NCBI GenBank assembly: GCA_030653035.1
Contig: JAUSAB010000054.1
Span: 1-64,000, forward strand
Direction: 5' to 3'
Source of the DNA: Desulfocapsaceae bacterium
GTDB lineage: Bacteria; Desulfobacterota; Desulfobulbia; Desulfobulbales; Desulfocapsaceae
DNA length: 64,000 bases
Positions 18,107 to 29,708 of the stretch are shown piece by piece. Positions within the stretch are counted from its first letter, which is position 1, and the number at the start of each line of letters is the position of its first letter. Below the pieces are notes generated by a model, which saw only the letters and a list, made by a program, of their open reading frames with translations, was not told where the DNA came from and made no database searches. The position numbers and the translations under genes are program-made.

Positions 18107-19381
18107 TCAATGCACTGAACAGGAGATACACGGGTCATAGGCCCGTACCAGCATCTCCGCCAGCAACTCAATCTCTTTATCCTTCTTACCCTGACCTGCA
18201 CAAAAGACAGCAAGCTCCTCAATATCATGGCGGATATTGGCATGATTCTGGCTGGTGGGGATCACACAATCGGCCTTGACAACCCTGCCTGCGGCGTCAA
18301 AATGCAGGCAGTGATAGAGGATGCCCCGGGGAACCTCCACTGCCGCCACCCCAATTCCTTCCCTGACTTCAACCGCCTGCCGGGGCTCCTGCCAGGGCAC
18401 GGCCAACAGATCATCAATCAACTGCATCGATTCCAGCACCACCTGCACACATTCCACCAGCTGGGCCACCACATTCATAAAGGGATTATGATTTATTGGT
18501 ATCAGTCCAAGCTCCTTGGCAATGACTTTAGCCGCCGGCAGCAGACCCGCAAAGTTATTATTGATCCGGGCCAGGGCGCCCACGGCAAAAGATTTCCGCG
18601 ACAGACGGCTCAGTTTTGAGGTAGACCACTCGGCCATATACTCATTGGTCATGGCCGCGTACTCCTGCTCCTTTTTGACCACCCCGTCTGTGGAAATAAG
18701 ATCGCCGCCGATAAAGGGATAATCGCCATTGCCATTCAGCGATACAAACTCGGTCTCCCGCTGGAAATCAGGGATGGAAAAACTCCTAAACAGCGAGACA
18801 CTGGCGTCAAGATCAGCAAGAGAAGCCTGCAACCGCTGCCGAAACTGGCCCAGACGATACCGGTCCGGCAACATGGTAAAACCACCGACCACGGTGCGGG
18901 TAGGGTGTAGCCGGCGGCCACCGACCTCGTCACAGATATCATTGGCCAGAAGTTTGAGGCGGAGGGCCTGCTGCACCACTGCCGGATGGCTCCGGGTCAG
19001 GGGCAGGACGCTGCCGACGCCTAAGTAATCAGGGGCCGCCAGAAAATAGATATGGAGGATATGGCTCTGCAGGGTCTCCATATGTTTAAGCAAGAGACGC
19101 AAGCGCTGAGTCTGCACCGTAGGCATGATTCCAAAGCCGTTTTCCACAGCCCGGATTGAGGCCAGGGTATGGCCAATAGAGCAGATCCCGCAGATCCGGC
19201 CGCAAAGATAGGGCGCGTTCTCAAAATGCTTGCCCACCAGGATGGCCTCAAAAAAACGCGGTGTCTCCACTACTTCCCAGCTGGCCTCCCGCACTTGGCC
19301 GTCCTGAATGACAATGCGGATATTGCCGTGCCCCTCCACCCTGGTCAGATGCTTGATATCAATATCACAAGAGATCTTCAT
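18107..19381 (-). CDS. hydA: NiFe hydrogenase large (alpha) subunit, sulfhydrogenase type
   Basis: 424 residues. It carries the NiFe active site of a cytoplasmic group 3b-like hydrogenase/sulfur reductase. The N-terminal ligand motif GRICGICSIGH gives Cys64 and Cys67, and the C-terminal motif DPCISCSVH gives Cys418 and Cys421. The protein ends at His424, directly after that motif, so there is no C-terminal peptide for a maturation protease to remove. The ATG at 19381 overlaps the hydD stop by four bases; an in-frame extension to 19606 is only the read-through of hydD. It is the last gene of hydB-G-D-A, the order known from Pyrococcus sulfhydrogenase. Confidence 0.93.
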   Translation of the reverse strand: MKISCDIDIKHLTRVEGHGNIRIVIQDGQVREASWEVVETPRFFEAILVGKHFENAPYLCGRICGICSIGHTLASIRAVENGFGIMPTVQTQRLRLLLKHMETLQSHILHIYFLAAPDYLGVGSVLPLTRSHPAVVQQALRLKLLANDICDEVGGRRLHPTRTVVGGFTMLPDRYRLGQFRQRLQASLADLDASVSLFRSFSIPDFQRETEFVSLNGNGDYPFIGGDLISTDGVVKKEQEYAAMTNEYMAEWSTSKLSRLSRKSFAVGALARINNNFAGLLPAAKVIAKELGLIPINHNPFMNVVAQLVECVQVVLESMQLIDDLLAVPWQEPRQAVEVREGIGVAAVEVPRGILYHCLHFDAAGRVVKADCVIPTSQNHANIRHDIEELAVFCAGQGKKDKEIELLAEMLVRAYDPCISCSVH

Positions 19382-20187
19382 CTTCCGTCCTCCTTCTTGC
19401 CTTTGACCTCGGCGACAAAATCGGCAAAGCCGCCAAAACATTCCAGTCGATCCATCATCCGCTCCGGGGAAATCCCCCTTTCCGCCATGATGATCTGCAA
19501 CCGGGCAAGATTGGCCTCGGGCGCCGGCCCGCGGCAGCCCCAGCAACCCAGACGGTTGGAAGGGCACCAGGCATCGCAGCCGGCCCGGGTCACCGGCCCT
19601 AGACAAGGCTCGCCCAGATCAAAGAGGCAGATATTCTCTCGGGCCTTACACTCCATGCACACCGGGTATTGAGGGTGATGGATCTCTTCACCCAGGACCA
19701 GAGCGGTAACGATCCGCTCCACCTCCTCCTTCTTGATCGGACAGCCATAGATCTCCAGATCCACCTTAATGACCGCGGAAAGAGGTTTTACTTCCTGGGT
19801 GTCGATAGGAAAAGAGCTATAGACCTCTTTTTTCACCCACTCCAGATCATTAAAACGATTCTTCAACTGGTTGACCCCGCCAAAGCAGGCACAACTGCCG
19901 AGGGCCACCACCAGCTTCGCCTTTGCACGAATATTTTTGAGCCGCTCTTCTTCATCAGCCCGGGTAATAGAGCCCTCAATAAAGGCAATCTCATACTCAT
20001 CACCCGCTTCCTTCATCCCCTCCCGAAAACGAACAATCTCCACCAGCGAGAGGAAATCAAGCAGGGTCGCCTCGTTATTGAGCAATTGAAGCTGGCAGCC
20101 TTCGCAGGAGCTTAACTCAAAAAAGCCCACCTTGGGCCTGGCCACCGGGACCCCCAAAAATGTTTTATTCGTCGTCATCTCAGACAC
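19378..20187 (-). CDS. hydD: NiFe hydrogenase small (delta) subunit, sulfhydrogenase type
   Basis: 269 residues. It carries the iron-sulfur relay between the NiFe site and the flavin subunit. Cluster ligands are visible as SSCEGCQLQ (Cys28, Cys31), GSCACFGG near residue 96, and a Cys-rich segment (CMECKARENIC, GCDAWCPSNRLGCWGCRG) that binds the medial and distal clusters. There is no twin-arginine signal, so the enzyme is cytoplasmic, as expected for group 3. An AGGTG ribosome binding site precedes the ATG. A 163-bp gap with a large hairpin separates it from hydG. Confidence 0.93.
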   Translation of the reverse strand: MSEMTTNKTFLGVPVARPKVGFFELSSCEGCQLQLLNNEATLLDFLSLVEIVRFREGMKEAGDEYEIAFIEGSITRADEEERLKNIRAKAKLVVALGSCACFGGVNQLKNRFNDLEWVKKEVYSSFPIDTQEVKPLSAVIKVDLEIYGCPIKKEEVERIVTALVLGEEIHHPQYPVCMECKARENICLFDLGEPCLGPVTRAGCDAWCPSNRLGCWGCRGPAPEANLARLQIIMAERGISPERMMDRLECFGGFADFVAEVKGKKEDGR

Positions 20188-20295
20188 CTGTTCGAAAATA
20201 ATTTAGCAGCGTTGTCAATATAAGACCTGTTGTTATCCGCCAAAGGCCTCTCCCAGAAACCGCCGGAAGAGACTGGCTGTTTGGAAAGAGGCATA

Positions 20296-20352
20296 AGGTG
20301 CCGTAAGCTCAAAGAGCAAGAAAAAGCCCTTGCTCTTTGAGCAACGGCACCT
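20296..20352 (-). repeat. Long intercistronic hairpin between hydG and hydD
   Basis: AGGTGCCGT (20296-20304) pairs with ACGGCACCT (20344-20352), and CTCAAAGAGCAAG (20308-20320) pairs with CTTGCTCTTTGAG (20329-20341), both perfectly. Three bases on one side and two on the other are unpaired. It overlaps the hydG stop codon and has no T-run, so it looks like an RNA stability, processing or attenuation element, not a simple terminator. Confidence 0.8.
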
Positions 20353-21229
20353 AAATAGCCTCCTTCAGATTCAACACCGACCAGTAATCAAAGACCGGAC
20401 CATCGAGACAGGTATAGGTGGAACCGATATTACAACGGCAACACTTGCCCCGGCCGCAGTGCATCCGCCGCTCCAGCGAGACAAAGATCTTTTCCACCGG
20501 CACCCCGGCGCTGATCAGCAGCTCACAGACAAAACGAAACATGACCGGTGGGCCACAGACAATGACGCTGGTATGCTCCCGAAAACGATCAGGGACACTA
20601 TCGGCAATACGCTGTTTCAAAAGCTCGGTAATCAACCCGACCGGCCCCTGCCATCCCGGTTCTTCTCTGTCAACAATGATATTGAGCCCCACATCAAACT
20701 GCCGCCACATGGCATACTCATAACCAAAAAGCAACTCAGAAGGTCGGCGCGCCCCATACATAATATCCACCTGACCATAACGGCTGCGCTTTTCGAGCAC
20801 CGCCAGGATGGGAGAGCGCAGCGGCGCAATCCCCAACCCCCCCGCAATAAGCAGGATATCCTCACCCTCCATCTTCTCCACCGGAAAATGGGTGCCAAAA
20901 GGGCCGCTGATGCCGACTCTCGTTCCCCGTCCCACCCGATCGAGAAACCTGGTCATATTGCCGGCAGCCCGGATGCACAGTTCCAGATCACCATGGCGGA
21001 CCGGAGATGAAGAGATCGAAAAGGGGGCATCACCAATCCCCGGCAGCTCCAGCATGACAAACTGCCCCGGCTTGAAGATGAACTGCTCTCGTTCCACTGG
21101 GTCAACAAGCTGGATCTGATAAAGCTTTTCCATCCTGGTCAAGGGATAGACATTGGTGATCTCAGCCTTGTAGGAGTATTCAAACTGCTCGCCTGCAACA
21201 GGCTGGATAAAATCAAGTTCGGTTTTCAT
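20351..21229 (-). CDS. hydG: Sulfhydrogenase gamma subunit, FAD/NAD(P)-binding
   Basis: 292 residues, ferredoxin-NADP reductase-like. The FAD-binding barrel has FKPGQFVMLELPGIGDAPFS near residue 53, and the NAD(P)-binding half starts at LLIAGGLGIAPLRSP near 128. A C-terminal [2Fe-2S] segment has four cysteines (CGRGKCCRCN and the later TYTC). It passes electrons between NAD(P)H and the hydrogenase clusters. An AGGAG site lies seven bases before the ATG. It is flanked upstream by a repeat-like insertion and downstream by a strong hairpin, both unusual inside a hyd operon. Confidence 0.92.
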   Translation of the reverse strand: MKTELDFIQPVAGEQFEYSYKAEITNVYPLTRMEKLYQIQLVDPVEREQFIFKPGQFVMLELPGIGDAPFSISSSPVRHGDLELCIRAAGNMTRFLDRVGRGTRVGISGPFGTHFPVEKMEGEDILLIAGGLGIAPLRSPILAVLEKRSRYGQVDIMYGARRPSELLFGYEYAMWRQFDVGLNIIVDREEPGWQGPVGLITELLKQRIADSVPDRFREHTSVIVCGPPVMFRFVCELLISAGVPVEKIFVSLERRMHCGRGKCCRCNIGSTYTCLDGPVFDYWSVLNLKEAI

Positions 21230-21274
21230 ACTTTTACTCCTGATGGTCTATCCAAAAATCACAGTGGAAATGGT

Positions 21275-21430
21275 TAAGCAAAAAGGCCCAAAGACGAGGC
21301 GCGCAGGTAAGCGAGCTTGCGAGACTCCGAATCCTGAGGACTGCGGCGTACTGTTGGGTATGCCGCAGTGACAAAGGAGGGCGCGCCCCAAAGGAAGTGC
21401 CCTTGGGGTACAACGAAGTATTTTGGCATT
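21275..21430 (-). repeat. Structured, possibly dispersed repeat element between hydB and hydG
   Basis: About 155 bp of GC-rich sequence with two hairpins: CTGCGGC/GCCGCAG (21341-21347, 21362-21368) and CCCCAAAGG/CCCTTGGGG (21386-21394, 21400-21408). It separates genes that are normally tightly packed. Read on the minus strand it stays open (a nominal 93-residue frame overlapping the hydB 3' end), with a peptide rich in R, P, L and C of the sort often mis-annotated from intergenic repeats in related genomes. No second copy exists in this window. Confidence 0.45.
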
Positions 21431-21441
21431 ACTCTTAGCCA

Positions 21442-22479
21442 TCACTTGCTGGCCCGGACACTGGCTATTACCTCCGGCACCGTGATATGTGCCAGGCAGG
21501 ACTGACCGCAACGGCCACAACCCACACATAACGACTCCTCAAAGGCCTCCACAAAACCCCGGTGTTTATGGTAATAGCGATACTTCAACCGGGTATGGCT
21601 CTCAGGCCGGAAGTTATGACCGCCCGCAACGACGGCAAAATCGAGGAGATTGCAGGAGTAGAGCTGCTTCTCTTTGCGGGCATGGGTAAATACCATATCC
21701 ACATGTTCTTCCACCCCATAACAGTAACAGGTGGGACAGACCTGGGCGCAAGTCCCGCAGGAGAGACATTTCTCCCCCCACTCCTTCCAGACCGGGGCCT
21801 GAAACTCCAGATCAAGGATCTTGGTCAGATCGGAGGTATCAACATGGGCAACAAACTGAGATTCTTTTGCCTCCATCTCATCCAGATACCGGCGATGCTC
21901 ACTGCTGTCGGGCTCGCGGCAATCAATCTGCTCCAACAGGTGAAAGGCCCGAGACGACAGAATCTCGGCAAAATAGAGATCATCCATCCGCGTCAGAAAG
22001 AGATCAAACCCCCGCAAGGCTGAATCAGTCCCCATTGACTTGCAAAAGCAGTACGGCTGCGGGTTACAGGAATGGCCGACAATAAACATATTGGCCCGCT
22101 TCTCCCCATAAAAGGGGTTGGGATACCGGCCTCCAAGCAGGACCTTGTCCAGTTTGTTCAGGGCGTTGATATCACAAGAATGTAGACCAAAGAGAACCAG
22201 CGGCGCATAGGCCCCATAATCCACCTCTTTGTGCCAATCACCATCCTGAACGGTAAAAGAGCAGAGATCCTCGCGATAGGGCAGAAAATAATTCTTGGCC
22301 GAATGGATAGTCTGCGTATAATCAAGACGCAGATCCGAAAAATCATGCACTACTCCAAAGTCATAGAGAGAACGGCCGTGCTGATCTTCCCCCTTTTTTA
22401 CCGGCCCGACAATCCTGTTAGCCGCCAGGATCTGAAAAAGACGAATCAGCTCAACCACCGGAAAAACCTTAAATAACAT
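21442..22479 (-). CDS. hydB: Sulfhydrogenase beta subunit, 4Fe-4S protein
   Basis: 345 residues. Two C-terminal ferredoxin-type cluster motifs (CLSCGTCAQVCPTC and CVGCGRCGQSC) and extra cysteines near residue 135-145 (SCNPQPYCFC) match the HydB/anaerobic sulfite reductase A family. It is the proposed polysulfide or sulfur-reducing partner that also relays electrons. GGAGG precedes the ATG. It starts the hydB-G-D-A set, 26 bp after the dikinase-like gene, so the five genes may be co-transcribed. Confidence 0.92.
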   Translation of the reverse strand: MLFKVFPVVELIRLFQILAANRIVGPVKKGEDQHGRSLYDFGVVHDFSDLRLDYTQTIHSAKNYFLPYREDLCSFTVQDGDWHKEVDYGAYAPLVLFGLHSCDINALNKLDKVLLGGRYPNPFYGEKRANMFIVGHSCNPQPYCFCKSMGTDSALRGFDLFLTRMDDLYFAEILSSRAFHLLEQIDCREPDSSEHRRYLDEMEAKESQFVAHVDTSDLTKILDLEFQAPVWKEWGEKCLSCGTCAQVCPTCYCYGVEEHVDMVFTHARKEKQLYSCNLLDFAVVAGGHNFRPESHTRLKYRYYHKHRGFVEAFEESLCVGCGRCGQSCLAHITVPEVIASVRASK

Positions 22480-22505: not shown

Positions 22506-25500
22506 CTACAGCGGCAGGATGTGCATCTCTTCCTGAATGGGATGCATTCCGGAGAGCAACAGACCTTTCCGACCATCAATGGAAACGGGATCGCCAAAAC
22601 GAATCACCTGGCTCCCTATCTCACAATACTCCCCCGCCTCATAAACCTTCAAATGTTTGCAACCAACCACACAGGTCTTCTCCAGCCGAACGGCTACCAC
22701 TGAGGCGTGCGAGGTCTGCCCGCCACGGGAGGTCAACAGTCCTTCCGCCATATCAATGACCTTGATATCCTCGGGCACCGTATCCTGACGAATCAGGATC
22801 AATGGCATCTTGGGATCGGTGACCCGCAACTCCAGGATATTCTCTTCGGTAAAGACCGCGCGCCCGGACAGGGCTGAGCCTGAGACCCCGATCCCTTTGC
22901 CCAGAAACGAGCGTTCAAGCTCAGGTGTCTCGGCAAAGACATTGAAATGCTCCTTCTTCTTGATGGTGATCATGTCGCGGGTCTGCAACAAATAAAGCTG
23001 CTCGGGCTCCGGCCCCTCAAAGGTAAACTCAATCTCCTGCGGATCCCAACGCTTCTCATAGACCAGATCCCTGGAGATCGCCAGCAAGCGGTCATAGATC
23101 TTGGGGAAACGGCGCTCCAGAGTCTCATCTACAGAACGGCCATCAAGCTCGGCCTGCTCGACTGAAACCGGAAGGCTGGTAACGAGACCCGACACAATAT
23201 CCTCACCCTGATCACCATAGGCATAATCACCCCACAAGGCCACCCGCTGCACCTTACGATACGGGTGTGAAGTAAACAACACCCCGGATCCCGCAGTATC
23301 ACTGCGATTACCAAAGACCATCGCCTGAACGATAACCGCTGTCCCCCAGGCATCAGAGACATCCATGATCCGGCGATAATCAACCGCCTTGACCGTCTGC
23401 CATGAATCCAGGACCATGGCCACCGCATTCACCAGTTGCAGCCAGGGATCGTCAGGGATCCCCAGCCCCTGCCTGCGCACCAGTTTTTGATACTCAAGCG
23501 CCAGATTCCGCATCTGTTCCGGCGTGAACTCCCGCTTCAGACTGACACCATGCCTGGCCTTGGCCCGGTTCATCAGCTCCTGAAAATCCTCCCGCTGCAT
23601 CCCTGAAGTCATGGCCCAGGACTGGAGAAACCGTCGGTAATTGTCCCAGGACAGATACCCCTCACCATGAGCGCGAACATACTCCTCAATGATCTCCTCA
23701 TTAAGCCCGACATTATGAATCGTGGCCATCATCCCCGGCATGGAGACTGCGGCCCCGCTGCGAATAGAGAGGAGCAGTGGTCGCTCGGACGACCCAAAGA
23801 TCTTGCCGGTCTTCCGCTCAATCTCATCAAGGGCCGTGCGGATGCGCTGCATAAACTCGTCCCTGGCCTTGGCAAAACCATAGATCACCTCCCGGCAGCG
23901 AAAGACCTCGGTAGTGATGATAAAGGCAGGCGGCACCGGCATGTTATCTTCATGGAGGGTCACCAGATTAAATCCCTTGTTACCCAAATGAATCAGGTCA
24001 TGGGTATAGGGGGTCACCCGATGGAGCAGGGAGATAGCCTTTTCCGGATTATAAGTCATGAGTAGATCCAGCATCCGCTGATCCAGCATGTTTTTCTGGA
24101 TCTCGAGCGTCCCGATGATCCTGGTGATAAAATTATCCAGATGCTGCAGGCCAAAGGTGGAAGCAATCAGGTCCCGGAGAAAGGATTCGGACAACCGATG
24201 CACCGTGTTCACCATCTCCTTCTCATCCCATTGGGAACGATACTTGGTAAGCAGATTCTTCTCACCGATCTGGGGGATGATGATCGAAAGATTATTCTGA
24301 TGGATATTGGTATAAAAAGAGTAAATAACATCCTTGACCCCTTCGGAAAGTCCCCTGAAGATATCAAGGTACTGGGTATAGGAAAAACGCTTGATCCGCA
24401 GCGAGCTCTGCAGCAGCAACATATAGGTATCCAGACGCCGGGAAGAGATGCCGTCAATCCGCAGGGCCTGCATGTACAGCTTGAGACACTTGACGATGCG
24501 GTAAAAGGTAACCTCGGTGATAAAAGAGAGGTTGACGGTTTCGGGCAGTTTTTCCAGATAGATATTGGCCAGATTCTCCAGGCGGAAGGTCAAACTCAGG
24601 CTGTCAAACTTCCGTTCTGCGTACCGGCCATAAACCGACGGGATATCAACAGCGATATGACGCTTGTAATAGATATCTTCCTTGGCCGCAAAATGCTCCG
24701 TGGACAAAATCGTTTTCTTCAACCCTTCGAGGGTATTCAGGAGTGCGGTCAGACACCCTTCCGTATCGCAATTTTCGAGCTCTGCCAGCAGTTTTTCCAT
24801 CTCAGGGAATCCTTCCTGAACAGCCTGCTGCAACTCCGAACGAAGCTCCTGAAACCCGAGATTGTATTTCTGATGCAACAATTGAAACATCTGCACCAGC
24901 AGATCAAAGCGCCTTCTTTCCGCCACCGGCAGATCAGTCTGCGCCTCCAGATATTGCTGCCTCTCCTCGCGTTTCCAGGAAAGAAGATCATTCATTCCCT
25001 GAAACTGGAGCTGTTGAGAGATACGCTGGGACAGAATATGCTGTTCATCAACAAAGGGGCCGGAGCTGGTAACCTCCGCATATACTTCCGAAGGCAGGAA
25101 CGGCAGAAGCGGTTCTTTGTTCCCGGTCTTCCAGAACAGAAAGATGGCCTGGATAAAGCCGACGATGAGATTGGAGCTCTCCACATGACTCTGCTTGCGC
25201 AGAAAATGAATCAGCACATCACGCCGCTTATGGATCTCATCAAGCTCGGTGGAGACATCACGCAATTCACCTTCCGCCCCGATCTCATTGAAAAAAACCG
25301 GCATCAATTTGGTGAACTGTTTGGCCAGATTATAGATGGGCTCGATGGGATGATTGAGCAGTTGGGTGATATCCCGCTGAAAAAGATCCGTGTCTTTGAC
25401 ACAGGTGCCGGTCAGCTTCAGATTGATAATCAGCGCCGAAAAGAGGGTGGAGCACCATTTCGGTTCCCGCATGATCAAGTGGAGCCAGACCCGGATATTG

Positions 25501-26786
25501 GCCAGATGAGCGGGATTGGTCAGGGGCTGCCAGTCTTCATCGACGCCCATGACATTGGCATACTGGAAACCGAAACGAACCACTTCCCAGAGGAAGGCCT
25601 CCACCATTTTGCTCTTACCCCGGTCAAAGACCTCACCGCCCAGCACCTGGATGCACTGCAGAGAGGTATGGGGATATTTACGGACATTGGCCCGCAAAAG
25701 CTGAAAGGTGGTGAGCAGAAACTGCTCGATCTCTTCAAAACTCTGCTGACGGATCAGTTGCACCAGACTGCGGTTAATCTCACGCAGGGTCTCCTCATGG
25801 ATCAGATAGAGCCCCTTGGTGTCCATGATCCGAAAAAGAAACAGCAGCTTCTGATTTTCGGCAAAGCGGTTAAACGGCAAGGCAAGTTCAGGACCAGAAG
25901 CTCCCTCCGCGCCATCATCAACTCGGGCCAGACGGGCAGGGATCTCCTTATACAAGCGGACAATATCGACATGGGCCGGCAGGGTGAGGATTTCCTCCAG
26001 CCCCTTGAAGGGATCGGCATCAATATCAATGGCCGCAAGCTTCCCCTTATGGTGGCGCATGGCGTCATGGGAGATTGCCGCAAAGAGCTGCCCGGAATCG
26101 AAATCCTCACACAGGACTCCACAACGGCCAAGAAACCAGGGGAGCGGATCCTCTTCCTGCAACCAGTAGTCATAATTCCGGTTCAGGATAATCCGCATGA
26201 GCGCTGAGACGAGGCGATAATCAAAATTCAGTTCATGTCCCCGAGGAAAAGAAAGGAGACGAAGGGCCAGTTTTTTCATGGGATGCTGACCCTGCGTGAT
26301 ATACATCATGATTGCCGGATCACTTTGATCAAAGGCGGCCAATTGTTGAAAATAGCCATTCAGAGACGGCCCGAAACGCTGCAGATCGCTGGCATCGAAG
26401 AGCGAAAGCAGTTTCTCCACCCAGGCTAATTGGGCCTCAATAATCTGGATAAGGAGGGTTCCCTTTTTCAACGAATCATTAAGGGCTTGCAGAAACAGAC
26501 CGGTAAACAGGGTAAAGGCCTCCGGGCCCTGCGCATGGCGCTGATAATAACTGCTGTTTTTCAGACAGAAGCTGCGAAGCTGGGGGATGAGTAGGGACCA
26601 GTTCCGATAGGGATGACAGATCTCATAGAGCAAATGTTCAAGGGTTGCAGAAATCCCCTTATACCCGGAGACGATATCGAGAAGCAACCGGAGTTTCGGC
26701 TCGATGACCACCTCGCCAGCCGTCTCCGCCAGGTTGGCCTTCAGGGCATCGGACTCTATCTCGACTACTGTGGGAATTTGGGTCAT
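22506..26786 (-). CDS. Very large dikinase-like protein: PPDK-type ATP-binding and phospho-His domains, no PEP-binding barrel
   Basis: 1426 residues. Residues ~1-930 are a long, mostly helical region I cannot assign. From ~935 a pyruvate-phosphate-dikinase/PEP-synthase ATP-grasp domain is recognisable (LGNKGFNLVTLHEDNMPVPP, later LLSIRSGAAVSMPGMM and DPQEIEFTFEG). The swivelling phospho-His domain follows, with catalytic His1360 in GGQTSHASVVA. The chain then ends, so the C-terminal TIM barrel that binds PEP/pyruvate in PpdK and PpsA is missing. It may phosphorylate another acceptor, as glucan dikinases and rifampin phosphotransferase do, or work with a separate barrel. AAGGAT precedes the ATG. 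Neighbours are gap upstream and the hydrogenase operon downstream. Confidence 0.75.
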   Translation of the reverse strand: MTQIPTVVEIESDALKANLAETAGEVVIEPKLRLLLDIVSGYKGISATLEHLLYEICHPYRNWSLLIPQLRSFCLKNSSYYQRHAQGPEAFTLFTGLFLQALNDSLKKGTLLIQIIEAQLAWVEKLLSLFDASDLQRFGPSLNGYFQQLAAFDQSDPAIMMYITQGQHPMKKLALRLLSFPRGHELNFDYRLVSALMRIILNRNYDYWLQEEDPLPWFLGRCGVLCEDFDSGQLFAAISHDAMRHHKGKLAAIDIDADPFKGLEEILTLPAHVDIVRLYKEIPARLARVDDGAEGASGPELALPFNRFAENQKLLFLFRIMDTKGLYLIHEETLREINRSLVQLIRQQSFEEIEQFLLTTFQLLRANVRKYPHTSLQCIQVLGGEVFDRGKSKMVEAFLWEVVRFGFQYANVMGVDEDWQPLTNPAHLANIRVWLHLIMREPKWCSTLFSALIINLKLTGTCVKDTDLFQRDITQLLNHPIEPIYNLAKQFTKLMPVFFNEIGAEGELRDVSTELDEIHKRRDVLIHFLRKQSHVESSNLIVGFIQAIFLFWKTGNKEPLLPFLPSEVYAEVTSSGPFVDEQHILSQRISQQLQFQGMNDLLSWKREERQQYLEAQTDLPVAERRRFDLLVQMFQLLHQKYNLGFQELRSELQQAVQEGFPEMEKLLAELENCDTEGCLTALLNTLEGLKKTILSTEHFAAKEDIYYKRHIAVDIPSVYGRYAERKFDSLSLTFRLENLANIYLEKLPETVNLSFITEVTFYRIVKCLKLYMQALRIDGISSRRLDTYMLLLQSSLRIKRFSYTQYLDIFRGLSEGVKDVIYSFYTNIHQNNLSIIIPQIGEKNLLTKYRSQWDEKEMVNTVHRLSESFLRDLIASTFGLQHLDNFITRIIGTLEIQKNMLDQRMLDLLMTYNPEKAISLLHRVTPYTHDLIHLGNKGFNLVTLHEDNMPVPPAFIITTEVFRCREVIYGFAKARDEFMQRIRTALDEIERKTGKIFGSSERPLLLSIRSGAAVSMPGMMATIHNVGLNEEIIEEYVRAHGEGYLSWDNYRRFLQSWAMTSGMQREDFQELMNRAKARHGVSLKREFTPEQMRNLALEYQKLVRRQGLGIPDDPWLQLVNAVAMVLDSWQTVKAVDYRRIMDVSDAWGTAVIVQAMVFGNRSDTAGSGVLFTSHPYRKVQRVALWGDYAYGDQGEDIVSGLVTSLPVSVEQAELDGRSVDETLERRFPKIYDRLLAISRDLVYEKRWDPQEIEFTFEGPEPEQLYLLQTRDMITIKKKEHFNVFAETPELERSFLGKGIGVSGSALSGRAVFTEENILELRVTDPKMPLILIRQDTVPEDIKVIDMAEGLLTSRGGQTSHASVVAVRLEKTCVVGCKHLKVYEAGEYCEIGSQVIRFGDPVSIDGRKGLLLSGMHPIQEEMHILPL

Positions 26787-26939: not shown

Positions 26940-27944
26940 TTACAACGGCTTATTGGTTTCCATATGGAGGATCAGATCCAGCATCCGGTTGGAATAGCCC
27001 CATTCATTGTCGTACCAGCTCATTACCTTGACCGTGGTCCCGATCACCTTGGTTGACTGGGCATCAACGATAGAAGAATGGGAATCGCCCTGAAAATCAA
27101 TGGAGACCAGCGGCAGTTCCGTGTAGCCCAGATACTTATTAACCGCCCGCTTCAAGGCTTCATTCACCTCTTGCACCGTAGTCTCCTTTTCCACCTCCAT
27201 CACCACATCAACAAGCGATACATTGGGGGTGGGCACCCGCACGGCCAGACCGTCAAACTTGCCTTTCAAGGCAGGGATCACCAGAGCCACAGCGGCGGCC
27301 GCCCCGGTTTTGGTGGGAATCATCGACAGACCTGCAGCCCTGGCCCGACGCAGGTCAGAATGTGGGAAATCCAGGAGGCGCTGATCACCGGTATAGGCAT
27401 GAATCGTGGTCATCAGACCCCGCTTGATCCCAAAATTATCAAGGATGACCTGGGCTACCGGGGCCAGGCAGTTAGTAGTGCAGGAGGCGTTGGACACCAC
27501 ATGATGCACAGTCGGATCATATTCATCCTCATTGACCCCCATGACAAAGGTCTTGACATCTCCTTTGGCCGGAGCGGACAGAATCACCTTCCTGGCCCCG
27601 GCATCAATATGAGCCTTGAGCGAATCACTATCGCGAAATATCCCTGTACATTCTGCAACATACTCCACACCCATTTTCCCCCAGGGTATATCAATCGGAT
27701 TGCGATGACTGGAAACGGCAATATGCCGGCCATCGACAATGATGCCGTTGACGTCCGTCTCCACCTTCTTTTCATAGATCCCCATGATCGAATCATACTG
27801 GAGTAAATGGCCGAGAGTAGCATTATCAGTGAGATCATTGATGGCCACCACCTCGATATCAGTAAAGGCCGGATCTTTACTGATCGCCCGAAAGATATTC
27901 CTGCCAATACGCCCAAAACCATTTATGCCAATTTTTATCGTCAT
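26940..27944 (-). CDS. gap: Glyceraldehyde-3-phosphate dehydrogenase, type I
   Basis: 334 residues. It interconverts glyceraldehyde 3-phosphate and 1,3-bisphosphoglycerate in glycolysis and gluconeogenesis. The NAD-binding GINGFGRIGR is at residues 6-15, and an Asp in NDL near residue 37 suggests NAD preference. The catalytic Cys155 lies in SNASCTTNCLAP. An AAGGAGG ribosome binding site precedes the ATG. It stands alone on the minus strand between the GT5-like gene and the dikinase-like gene. Confidence 0.96.
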   Translation of the reverse strand: MTIKIGINGFGRIGRNIFRAISKDPAFTDIEVVAINDLTDNATLGHLLQYDSIMGIYEKKVETDVNGIIVDGRHIAVSSHRNPIDIPWGKMGVEYVAECTGIFRDSDSLKAHIDAGARKVILSAPAKGDVKTFVMGVNEDEYDPTVHHVVSNASCTTNCLAPVAQVILDNFGIKRGLMTTIHAYTGDQRLLDFPHSDLRRARAAGLSMIPTKTGAAAAVALVIPALKGKFDGLAVRVPTPNVSLVDVVMEVEKETTVQEVNEALKRAVNKYLGYTELPLVSIDFQGDSHSSIVDAQSTKVIGTTVKVMSWYDNEWGYSNRMLDLILHMETNKPL

Positions 27945-28043: not shown

Positions 28044-29708
28044 TTAGACTGTCAACTTCCCTACAGACGAAGCAACCTGTGCAGCCGCCTCTTTATACAG
28101 TTGCAGATACTGTTTCATTACCCTCTGCCAGGTGTATTTTTCACCAATCAGCTTGACGGCCTGCCGCTGTATCTCCCTGATCCTGTCAGGATGTTCTTGA
28201 TACAGGGCCATGGCCCTCTGCATCGCCTCACTCAATGCCGCCGGGGTATGCCGGATGTAGGAAAAACCAGTTTCCCCATCCAAGACCTTAACCAGACCAC
28301 CCACATGATGGACGATGGGCAGATTGCCAAAAAGCTGGGCGATAAAATCAGTCAGGCCGCAGGGCTCATAACGGGAAGGAATCAGAAAAAAATCGCCGGC
28401 GGCGTAGATTCGGTTAGCCAGGGCCGGATTAAAGCCCTTCAGGATACAGACCCGGCCACGATTGTCATCCTTTTCCGCCAGGACGGCCAGGTCCCGTTCT
28501 TCGTCATAGCCACCACTGCCCAACAGCAGAAACTGAAACGCGGGATTGTTTTTTTTATCTTTTAAAAGTCTCCGCAACGCGGCCAGCAGGATGCCAACCC
28601 CCTTCTGTTCATTGAGACGACCAATAAAGGTAAAAAGGGGCAGATCAGGGGTAAAATCAAGGGAACCGATGGGTACAATCCCTTCAACCATTCCATTGCC
28701 GGCAAGCTCCCGCAATAGGATCTCCTTACAGGCCCGCTTTCCCGGCAGAGCACCGTCTGCCAGGGGATTAAAGGGGGCATCAATCCCGCTCTTCCCTGCA
28801 TCGGCCGGATCAAATTCCGCCGGGTCAATGCCATTAGTCACTCCGGCCAGTTTCACCCCCAGATCCTGCAAGGTATGACCAAGCCAGTCAGTCAACCGGT
28901 CATCGTCTGTCTCCTGTAACTCACGGGCATACTGTTCACTGACCGTATTCATCACCGCATACCGGGCCGCCGCCAGAAAGGGATCAAAGCAATCGGCCAG
29001 CCGGTTCTGCATAATGACCTTCCACGGCAGGTCGGTACTGGCATGGGCAAAAGCAATATCCGCCACCTCCTGATGATAGCCTCGGCCCGCATTATGGATG
29101 GTCACCACCGTGCCCGTCCCGCGAAAAAAATGCCGCAGCCCGCTATTTTCACGGATCATGGCCGGCAACACCGCGGTATGACCATCATGACAGTGGATGA
29201 TATCAGGACAAGCACCCAGAAGCAGCATGAGATCCAGCGCCCCCTTCTGGAGCAGGATATTCATGGCAAAATAATCGATATGCCCCTGCCCTGCCTGATA
29301 ATCTGGATTTATAGCCTCGTCCGCCGCGGTATAGGTATAAACTGCTGTCTTCTCGGCAAAACGGTCGGCCTCAAGGAGATACAGGGTCACCCGGTCTATC
29401 CTCGCCATCCAGACCCGCACCTTTTCACGGCGCTCTGCATGGACATAATCAAGATCCACCTCATACTCCAGTTCACGTCCAGGGAAAAGAGGATCAGCAA
29501 GAGGGAGAAACCCCAGAGAGGATGGATCCATAAATCCATAGCACGGCATGACCACACTCACCTGCCGCCCTGGCCAACCGGCAAGGGCTTTGGCTAATTG
29601 CTGGGCCACATCTTTCACCCCGCCAGCCCCGGCCAGATGGCCATATTCACGAGTCAGCATCCAGATGGTGCAAATGGTGTCCCGGCCAACTTCACGTTTT
29701 TTACCCAT
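28044..29708 (-). CDS. GT5-like glycosyltransferase (glycogen/starch synthase relative)
   Basis: 554 residues with the two Rossmann domains of glycogen synthase. The C-terminal half has FIGRLNEQKGVGILLAAL and IPSRYEPCGLTDFIAQLFGN, the nucleotide-sugar site. The N-terminal loop reads LAGAGGVKDVAQQLAKAL where glycogen synthases have KxGGLxDV, so the usual ADP-glucose-contacting Lys is shifted or missing, and the chain is longer than the ~480 residues of GlgA. It is probably an alpha-glucan or related polysaccharide synthase, but donor and product are open. It follows aroC by six bases in the aroK-aroC operon; the ribosome binding site is GAGGG. Confidence 0.75.
   Translation of the reverse strand: MGKKREVGRDTICTIWMLTREYGHLAGAGGVKDVAQQLAKALAGWPGRQVSVVMPCYGFMDPSSLGFLPLADPLFPGRELEYEVDLDYVHAERREKVRVWMARIDRVTLYLLEADRFAEKTAVYTYTAADEAINPDYQAGQGHIDYFAMNILLQKGALDLMLLLGACPDIIHCHDGHTAVLPAMIRENSGLRHFFRGTGTVVTIHNAGRGYHQEVADIAFAHASTDLPWKVIMQNRLADCFDPFLAAARYAVMNTVSEQYARELQETDDDRLTDWLGHTLQDLGVKLAGVTNGIDPAEFDPADAGKSGIDAPFNPLADGALPGKRACKEILLRELAGNGMVEGIVPIGSLDFTPDLPLFTFIGRLNEQKGVGILLAALRRLLKDKKNNPAFQFLLLGSGGYDEERDLAVLAEKDDNRGRVCILKGFNPALANRIYAAGDFFLIPSRYEPCGLTDFIAQLFGNLPIVHHVGGLVKVLDGETGFSYIRHTPAALSEAMQRAMALYQEHPDRIREIQRQAVKLIGEKYTWQRVMKQYLQLYKEAAAQVASSVGKLTV

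Follow-up and report, generated by a model that had tools for sequence, protein, structure and literature searches.

A 64,000-nucleotide stretch of contig JAUSAB010000054.1 from a Desulfocapsaceae bacterium (positions 1 to 64,000, hereafter the window) carries a gene for a dikinase in which a helical N-terminal domain of 930 residues precedes a catalytic half of the pyruvate, phosphate dikinase (PPDK) type, and in which the phosphoenolpyruvate (PEP)/pyruvate barrel is missing. The gene is inherited almost one-to-one with that of a divergent glyceraldehyde-3-phosphate dehydrogenase (GAPDH), Gap2, and this pairing suggests that sugar metabolism has an enzymatic or regulatory step, as yet undescribed, at its triose-phosphate point. 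The reading that we favor, at a probability of roughly one in three, is that a dikinase of new architecture would work with Gap2 at the 3-phosphoglycerate/1,3-bisphosphoglycerate/glyceraldehyde-3-phosphate node. The map of central carbon metabolism is considered complete, and a gene near-universal in an order of sulfate-reducing-type bacteria, and present in many families of the phylum, is here tied to a divergent enzyme of that metabolism. If the enzymatic reading is true, the node hosts an undescribed reaction; if a regulatory one is true, the dikinase is a second, independent case, after VadK, of a PPDK turned regulator of metabolic enzymes, in this case in sulfur-cycle anaerobes.

The reading frame (Table 1) is uninterrupted, and along almost all of its length it is 58-95% identical to relatives in the order; we therefore take it for a real gene and not a chance frame. 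A long open reading frame on the opposite strand (24141-26207) was rejected as the shadow of this gene. A Pfam scan of the whole protein returned PPDK_N (E = 7e-29) and the PEP-utilizers mobile domain (E = 2.5e-17), and no further domain. With phmmer, residues 18-513 of Clostridium symbiosum PPDK (1kbl) align to residues 934-1419 (E = 3.5e-74); the alignment stops at the end of the phospho-His domain, where the barrel would start, and the chain ends there. The initial annotation, which had described a 1426-residue dikinase-like protein with a PPDK-type ATP-grasp and a phosphorylatable His1360 but no PEP barrel, is borne out by these matches.

In the ATP-grasp, K937, R1009, E1251, E1253, Q1268 and R1270 correspond to PPDK K22, R92, D321, E323, Q335 and R337, the sole swap being E1251 for Asp321, and His1360 lies within TSRGGQTSHA, the equivalent of the PPDK TSH motif. 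When 40 diverse members were aligned with PPDK, the nucleotide-site residues and T1358, S1359 and H1360 were found to be kept, His1360 invariantly. As both the nucleotide site and the TSH motif are conserved, the catalytic half is intact. Among NCBIfam models the protein scores 360.4 bits with TIGR01828 (PPDK), below the cut-off of 843.45, as against 84 bits with PEP synthase and 31 with rifampin phosphotransferase (Rph), and its ATP-grasp carries a short loop of the PPDK type, SIRSGAAVSMPGMM. By its sequence, the core is PPDK-like and not PEP-synthase-like.

Matches to the dikinase were found in 144 of 146 genomes of the window's order. With the N-terminal 942 residues as lone query, a sample of 297 genomes from across the phylum yielded 84 carriers, in almost all of which the frame is open and about 1400 residues long. 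It follows that the two halves are inherited as a unit and that the protein is ancient. Among the best 80 loci of a scan of genome contigs, those with a lineage in the title are Desulfobulbales-type or other deltaproteobacteria, including Desulfobulbus, Desulfocapsa, Desulforhopalus, Desulfurivibrio and the cable bacteria Electrothrix and Electronema. A search of plasmids gave no match.

Two kinds of GAPDH are to be distinguished, the ordinary type I enzyme encoded by gap1 and the longer, divergent Gap2 of about 410-440 residues, which scores 329 bits with TIGR01534, below the cut-off. In a search of the same 297 genomes Gap2 was found in 83 of the 84 dikinase carriers and in 2 of the 213 non-carriers; these two Gap2-only genomes, out of 85 with Gap2, are incomplete and belong to one genus. 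In six families of mixed presence (f16, f24, f25, f47, f63 and f68) the two genes are both there or both missing, with one exception, a genome that is 76% complete. This near one-to-one co-inheritance is the strongest evidence here, and suggests that the dikinase and Gap2 are functional partners. In Gap2 the catalytic residues of GAPDH, Cys and His, are retained, as are those that bind phosphate. In its coenzyme loop, Gly-Arg replaces the usual Ile-Asn in 22 of 24 sequences classed as Gap2 (a set in which a few are misclassified), perhaps with a shift in NAD/NADP preference.

The linkage is also physical. Neighborhoods were counted in 41 loci sampled across the phylum and, separately, in 44 named Desulfobulbia loci. 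Of the 41 sampled loci, 35 have a GAPDH gene no farther than 1.2 kb from the dikinase gene and 29 have gap2 itself there, and in 13 pgk plus tpi are near it; a frequent order is gap1-dikinase-gap2-pgk-tpi-secG. In another group of families (L075, L076, L078-L080) the dikinase gene and gap2 have remained neighbors but point toward each other, so the pair has outlasted a rearrangement. The window's own genome has gap1 and the dikinase gene together in the window and gap2-pgk-tpi together on another contig.

The N-terminal domain is the probable acceptor or partner site, since it contains two blocks of invariant polar residues (Table 1). An alignment of 40 members, whose identity to the window protein is 32-74%, has about 60 invariant columns. 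These are concentrated in residues 424-552 and 703-737 and rich in Asp, Glu, Lys, Arg, His and Tyr, and with so many polar or charged residues they resemble an active site more closely than a simple scaffold. An AlphaFold2 model of residues 1-925, overall a confident one (mean pLDDT 84.7, pTM 0.76), consists almost wholly of helices, apart from a beta hairpin at 702-723 that is modelled with low confidence at its tip (709-716). The position of this tip within the invariant KRHIAVDIPSxYGRY would fit a mobile substrate loop. Sequence and profile searches of residues 1-930, a stretch that the initial annotation had left unassigned, gave no relative in Pfam or the PDB. A PDB fold search with the model gave no significant match; the best of the 50 matches listed are importin-like and other solenoids, albeit weak (best E 1.4e-3, TM-scores 0.10-0.24, importin-like 0.10-0.15).

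In the favored reading, the ATP-grasp would charge His1360, converting ATP and phosphate to AMP and pyrophosphate (PPi), in a step that should be reversible because the chemistry is of the PPDK type. The swivel domain would then bring the phosphoryl group to a helical site lined by the invariant residues of 424-552 and 703-737, where a small metabolite of the triose node would receive it or donate it. The most likely pair is 3-phosphoglycerate/1,3-bisphosphoglycerate, favored because Gap2 acts on exactly that compound. Gap2 would reduce or produce this metabolite, which would amount to a route linked to AMP and PPi that runs alongside phosphoglycerate kinase (PGK). From standard free energies, the conversion of 3-phosphoglycerate, ATP and phosphate to 1,3-bisphosphoglycerate, AMP and PPi would lie near equilibrium, and it could be pulled by PPi removal or run in reverse, regenerating ATP from AMP and PPi. 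The most specific version, a 3-phosphoglycerate (1,3-bisphosphoglycerate), phosphate dikinase with a new acceptor fold that with Gap2 would provide a second, AMP/PPi-linked enzymatic route for the PGK step of glycolysis/gluconeogenesis, is tentative and, taken by itself, rather doubtful.

Several points weigh against this reading. Of 79 carriers tested, 77 have PGK, as do 70 of 70 good-quality genomes, so no pathway gap demands the dikinase, and a role as PGK replacement was rejected on the latter count. The acceptor site is not identifiable from any fold or sequence relative in Pfam or the PDB, and alpha-solenoids commonly bind proteins, not metabolites. Finally, we found no biochemical data on the dikinase in the literature, and in that on sulfate reducers nothing specific on the gene and no described function.

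The main alternative, a regulatory one, is suggested by VadK of Mycobacterium tuberculosis (Rv1127c). This PPDK, which has no pyruvate domain, phosphorylates itself on the catalytic His; its gene lies beside methylcitrate-cycle genes, and VadK binds the enzymes that they encode (PMC13400623). Like VadK, the dikinase has a barrel-less PPDK core with the catalytic His and ATP site intact, and is encoded beside genes of central-carbon enzymes. On this model the core would autophosphorylate and the solenoid would bind Gap2, perhaps also Gap1, so as to switch or scaffold triose-phosphate flux, with no small-molecule acceptor. The loss of the barrel, a metabolic enzyme as both neighbor and co-inherited partner, and the solenoid-like N-terminal model all speak for it, and the co-occurrence with Gap2 is compatible with partner binding of the VadK type. 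On the other hand, many of the invariant polar N-terminal residues look catalytic, and it would have to be explained why the partner is one GAPDH paralogue in particular. Moreover, VadK is an actinobacterial protein that consists of the core only (about 50 kDa), has no helical N-terminal domain and has methylcitrate partners, whereas the dikinase has 1426 residues and neighbors (gap, pgk, tpi and a GT5 gene) outside that cycle. We consider the regulatory model a possibility to be taken seriously, albeit with the odds against it. The present evidence does not choose between phosphorylation of an acceptor and regulation of GAPDH; if there is a small acceptor, 3-phosphoglycerate is the favored one.

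The neighboring gap1, gap2, pgk and tpi would also suit a dikinase that acts on a different small molecule of this node, be it glycerate, dihydroxyacetone, glyceraldehyde or a sugar phosphate, with Gap2 acting downstream. Such a dikinase has precedents in Rph and in the two-component HpeHI/phenylphosphate synthase family, whose alpha-helical acceptor domains bear no relation to the PEP barrel (PMC12167813, PMC4844700). In those enzymes the His swivels between the ATP-grasp and the helical domain, as we propose here, and the dikinase may work like Rph or like VadK. However, their ATP-grasp is of the PEP-synthase type, their domain order is different and their acceptor domains are dissimilar to that of the dikinase and absent among the 50 listed fold matches; with the NCBIfam Rph model the protein reaches its 31 bits against a cut-off of 999. 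Since Gap2, in addition, keeps the residues of a true GAPDH, we regard another acceptor as unlikely.

The dikinase could also be a pyruvate/PEP enzyme in disguise, with the helical domain replacing the barrel or a separate barrel protein completing it. With PPDK (TIGR01828; C. symbiosum 1KBL) it shares the ATP-grasp and phospho-His domains over PPDK 18-513, the catalytic residues and the loop, and differs in its helical domain and in having a barrel neither in the chain nor as a separate gene. The PPDK-type ATP-grasp, the 37 of 84 carriers without a full PPDK and the negative association of the two genes (odds ratio 0.30, p = 3e-5, uncorrected for phylogeny) would fit this explanation. But a search of the window's own genome for a stand-alone barrel, as proposed with the initial annotation, gave only the PEP-utilizers_C barrel inside a complete 822-residue PEP synthase, the linkage is to GAPDH and not to PEP enzymes, and 47 of 84 carriers also have a complete PPDK; such a disguise is very improbable, and the earlier view that the acceptor is probably not pyruvate holds. 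Since not all carriers have a true PPDK, the role of the dikinase is not that of PPDK, and PPDK replacement was rejected as a general rule. Nor does the genome have a separate PEP barrel of the kind found in Enzyme I. A phosphorelay to HPr was rejected because the genome has no HPr, though the rpoN operon that neighbors the dikinase gene in some deep lineages has two phosphotransferase system EIIA genes.

The initial annotation had also noted the adjoining gap and GT5-like genes, both of which are present (Table 1), and had proposed a glucan or sugar acceptor from the latter. As functional clues the two fared differently: gap is a conserved partner across the phylum and GT5 is not, and the divergent Gap2, which had not been singled out, is the main association. 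GT5 accompanies gap1-dikinase in 31 of the 44 named Desulfobulbia loci versus 6 of the 41 loci across the phylum, and is thus largely a feature of the window's own class; most deep lineages have GAPDH genes as neighbors without GT5. Plant glucan water dikinases (GWD/PWD) have starch-binding modules and a phospho-His domain that precedes the ATP-grasp. The dikinase would resemble them in its chemistry with a non-pyruvate acceptor, but its ATP-grasp comes first, and neither Pfam nor PDB sequence and fold searches revealed a carbohydrate-binding family or fold in the N-terminal part, for which structure prediction, proposed earlier as a means of finding one, gave the all-alpha, solenoid-like model. 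For all the appeal of GT5 next door, a bacterial glucan dikinase acting on a glycogen-like polymer is thus highly improbable. As far as domain content and profile scores indicate, the protein is neither a PPDK (no barrel), a GWD (no carbohydrate module, other domain order), an Rph (score) nor VadK proper (architecture, partners); new among PPDK-derived dikinases are the helical N-terminal domain and the Gap2 partner that define it.

Table 1. Features of the dikinase locus in the window.
Feature	Position	Strand	Details
Barrel-less dikinase	22506..26786	-	1426 residues, ATG start
Phospho-His swivel domain, residues 1294-1413	22548..22907	-	Pfam and PPDK alignment
His1360 codon, predicted phosphoryl carrier (PPDK His455)	22707..22709	-	PPDK alignment
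PPDK-type ATP-grasp, residues 934-1271	22974..23987	-	Alignment to PPDK
All-alpha, solenoid-like domain, residues 1-930, no known family; probable acceptor/partner domain	23997..26786	-	AlphaFold2
Residues 703-737, beta hairpin with low-confidence loop, invariant KRHIAVDIPSxYGRYxExKFD	24576..24680	-	Alignment and AlphaFold2
Invariant block, residues 424-552: NPAHLxNIRxW, CxKDTDLFQRDIT, NEIGAEGxLRDVSTExDE, LRKQSHVESS	25131..25517	-	40-member alignment
gap1, type I GAPDH, directly upstream of the dikinase gene	26940..27944	-	TIGR01534 432 bits, cut-off 367
GT5 glycogen-synthase-like gene	28044..29708	-	TIGR02095 258 bits, below the 328 (GlgA) cut-off

Sulfate activation releases AMP and PPi (PMC2702500), and an enzyme salvaging both in dissimilatory sulfate reduction was considered as well. 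Carriers are enriched in dsrA (73 of 84 versus 70 of 213 non-carriers, p = 6e-18), and the cluster of one family (L097, L098, L100) continues from gap1-dikinase-gap2-pgk-tpi-secG into sat (ATP sulfurylase), aprB and aprA (adenosine phosphosulfate reductase, B and A judged by eye). However, many dsrA-positive genomes have no dikinase, and inside mixed families (e.g. f63, f47, f68) the dikinase does not track dsrA, so the phylum-wide association may reflect shared ancestry. A salvage role is accordingly a long shot.

Some further features of the surroundings were recorded. In several deep-branching loci (e.g. L098 1666-7331) gap1-dikinase closes an lptAB-rpoN-hpf-EIIA-rapZ-EIIA(man) operon. In the window, subunits resembling an archaeal-type sulfhydrogenase (beta and gamma, NCBIfam) are encoded downstream on the same strand, at 18107-22479. 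The window's own genome also encodes five more dikinase-type proteins of 842-925 residues, with ATP-grasp and mobile His domain and without a PEP barrel, on contigs 65 (L189 3360-13394), 58 (L190 1952-4522) and 22 (L191 1712-4273). Three of the five form a cluster on contig 65, where a histidine kinase gene lies between two of them.

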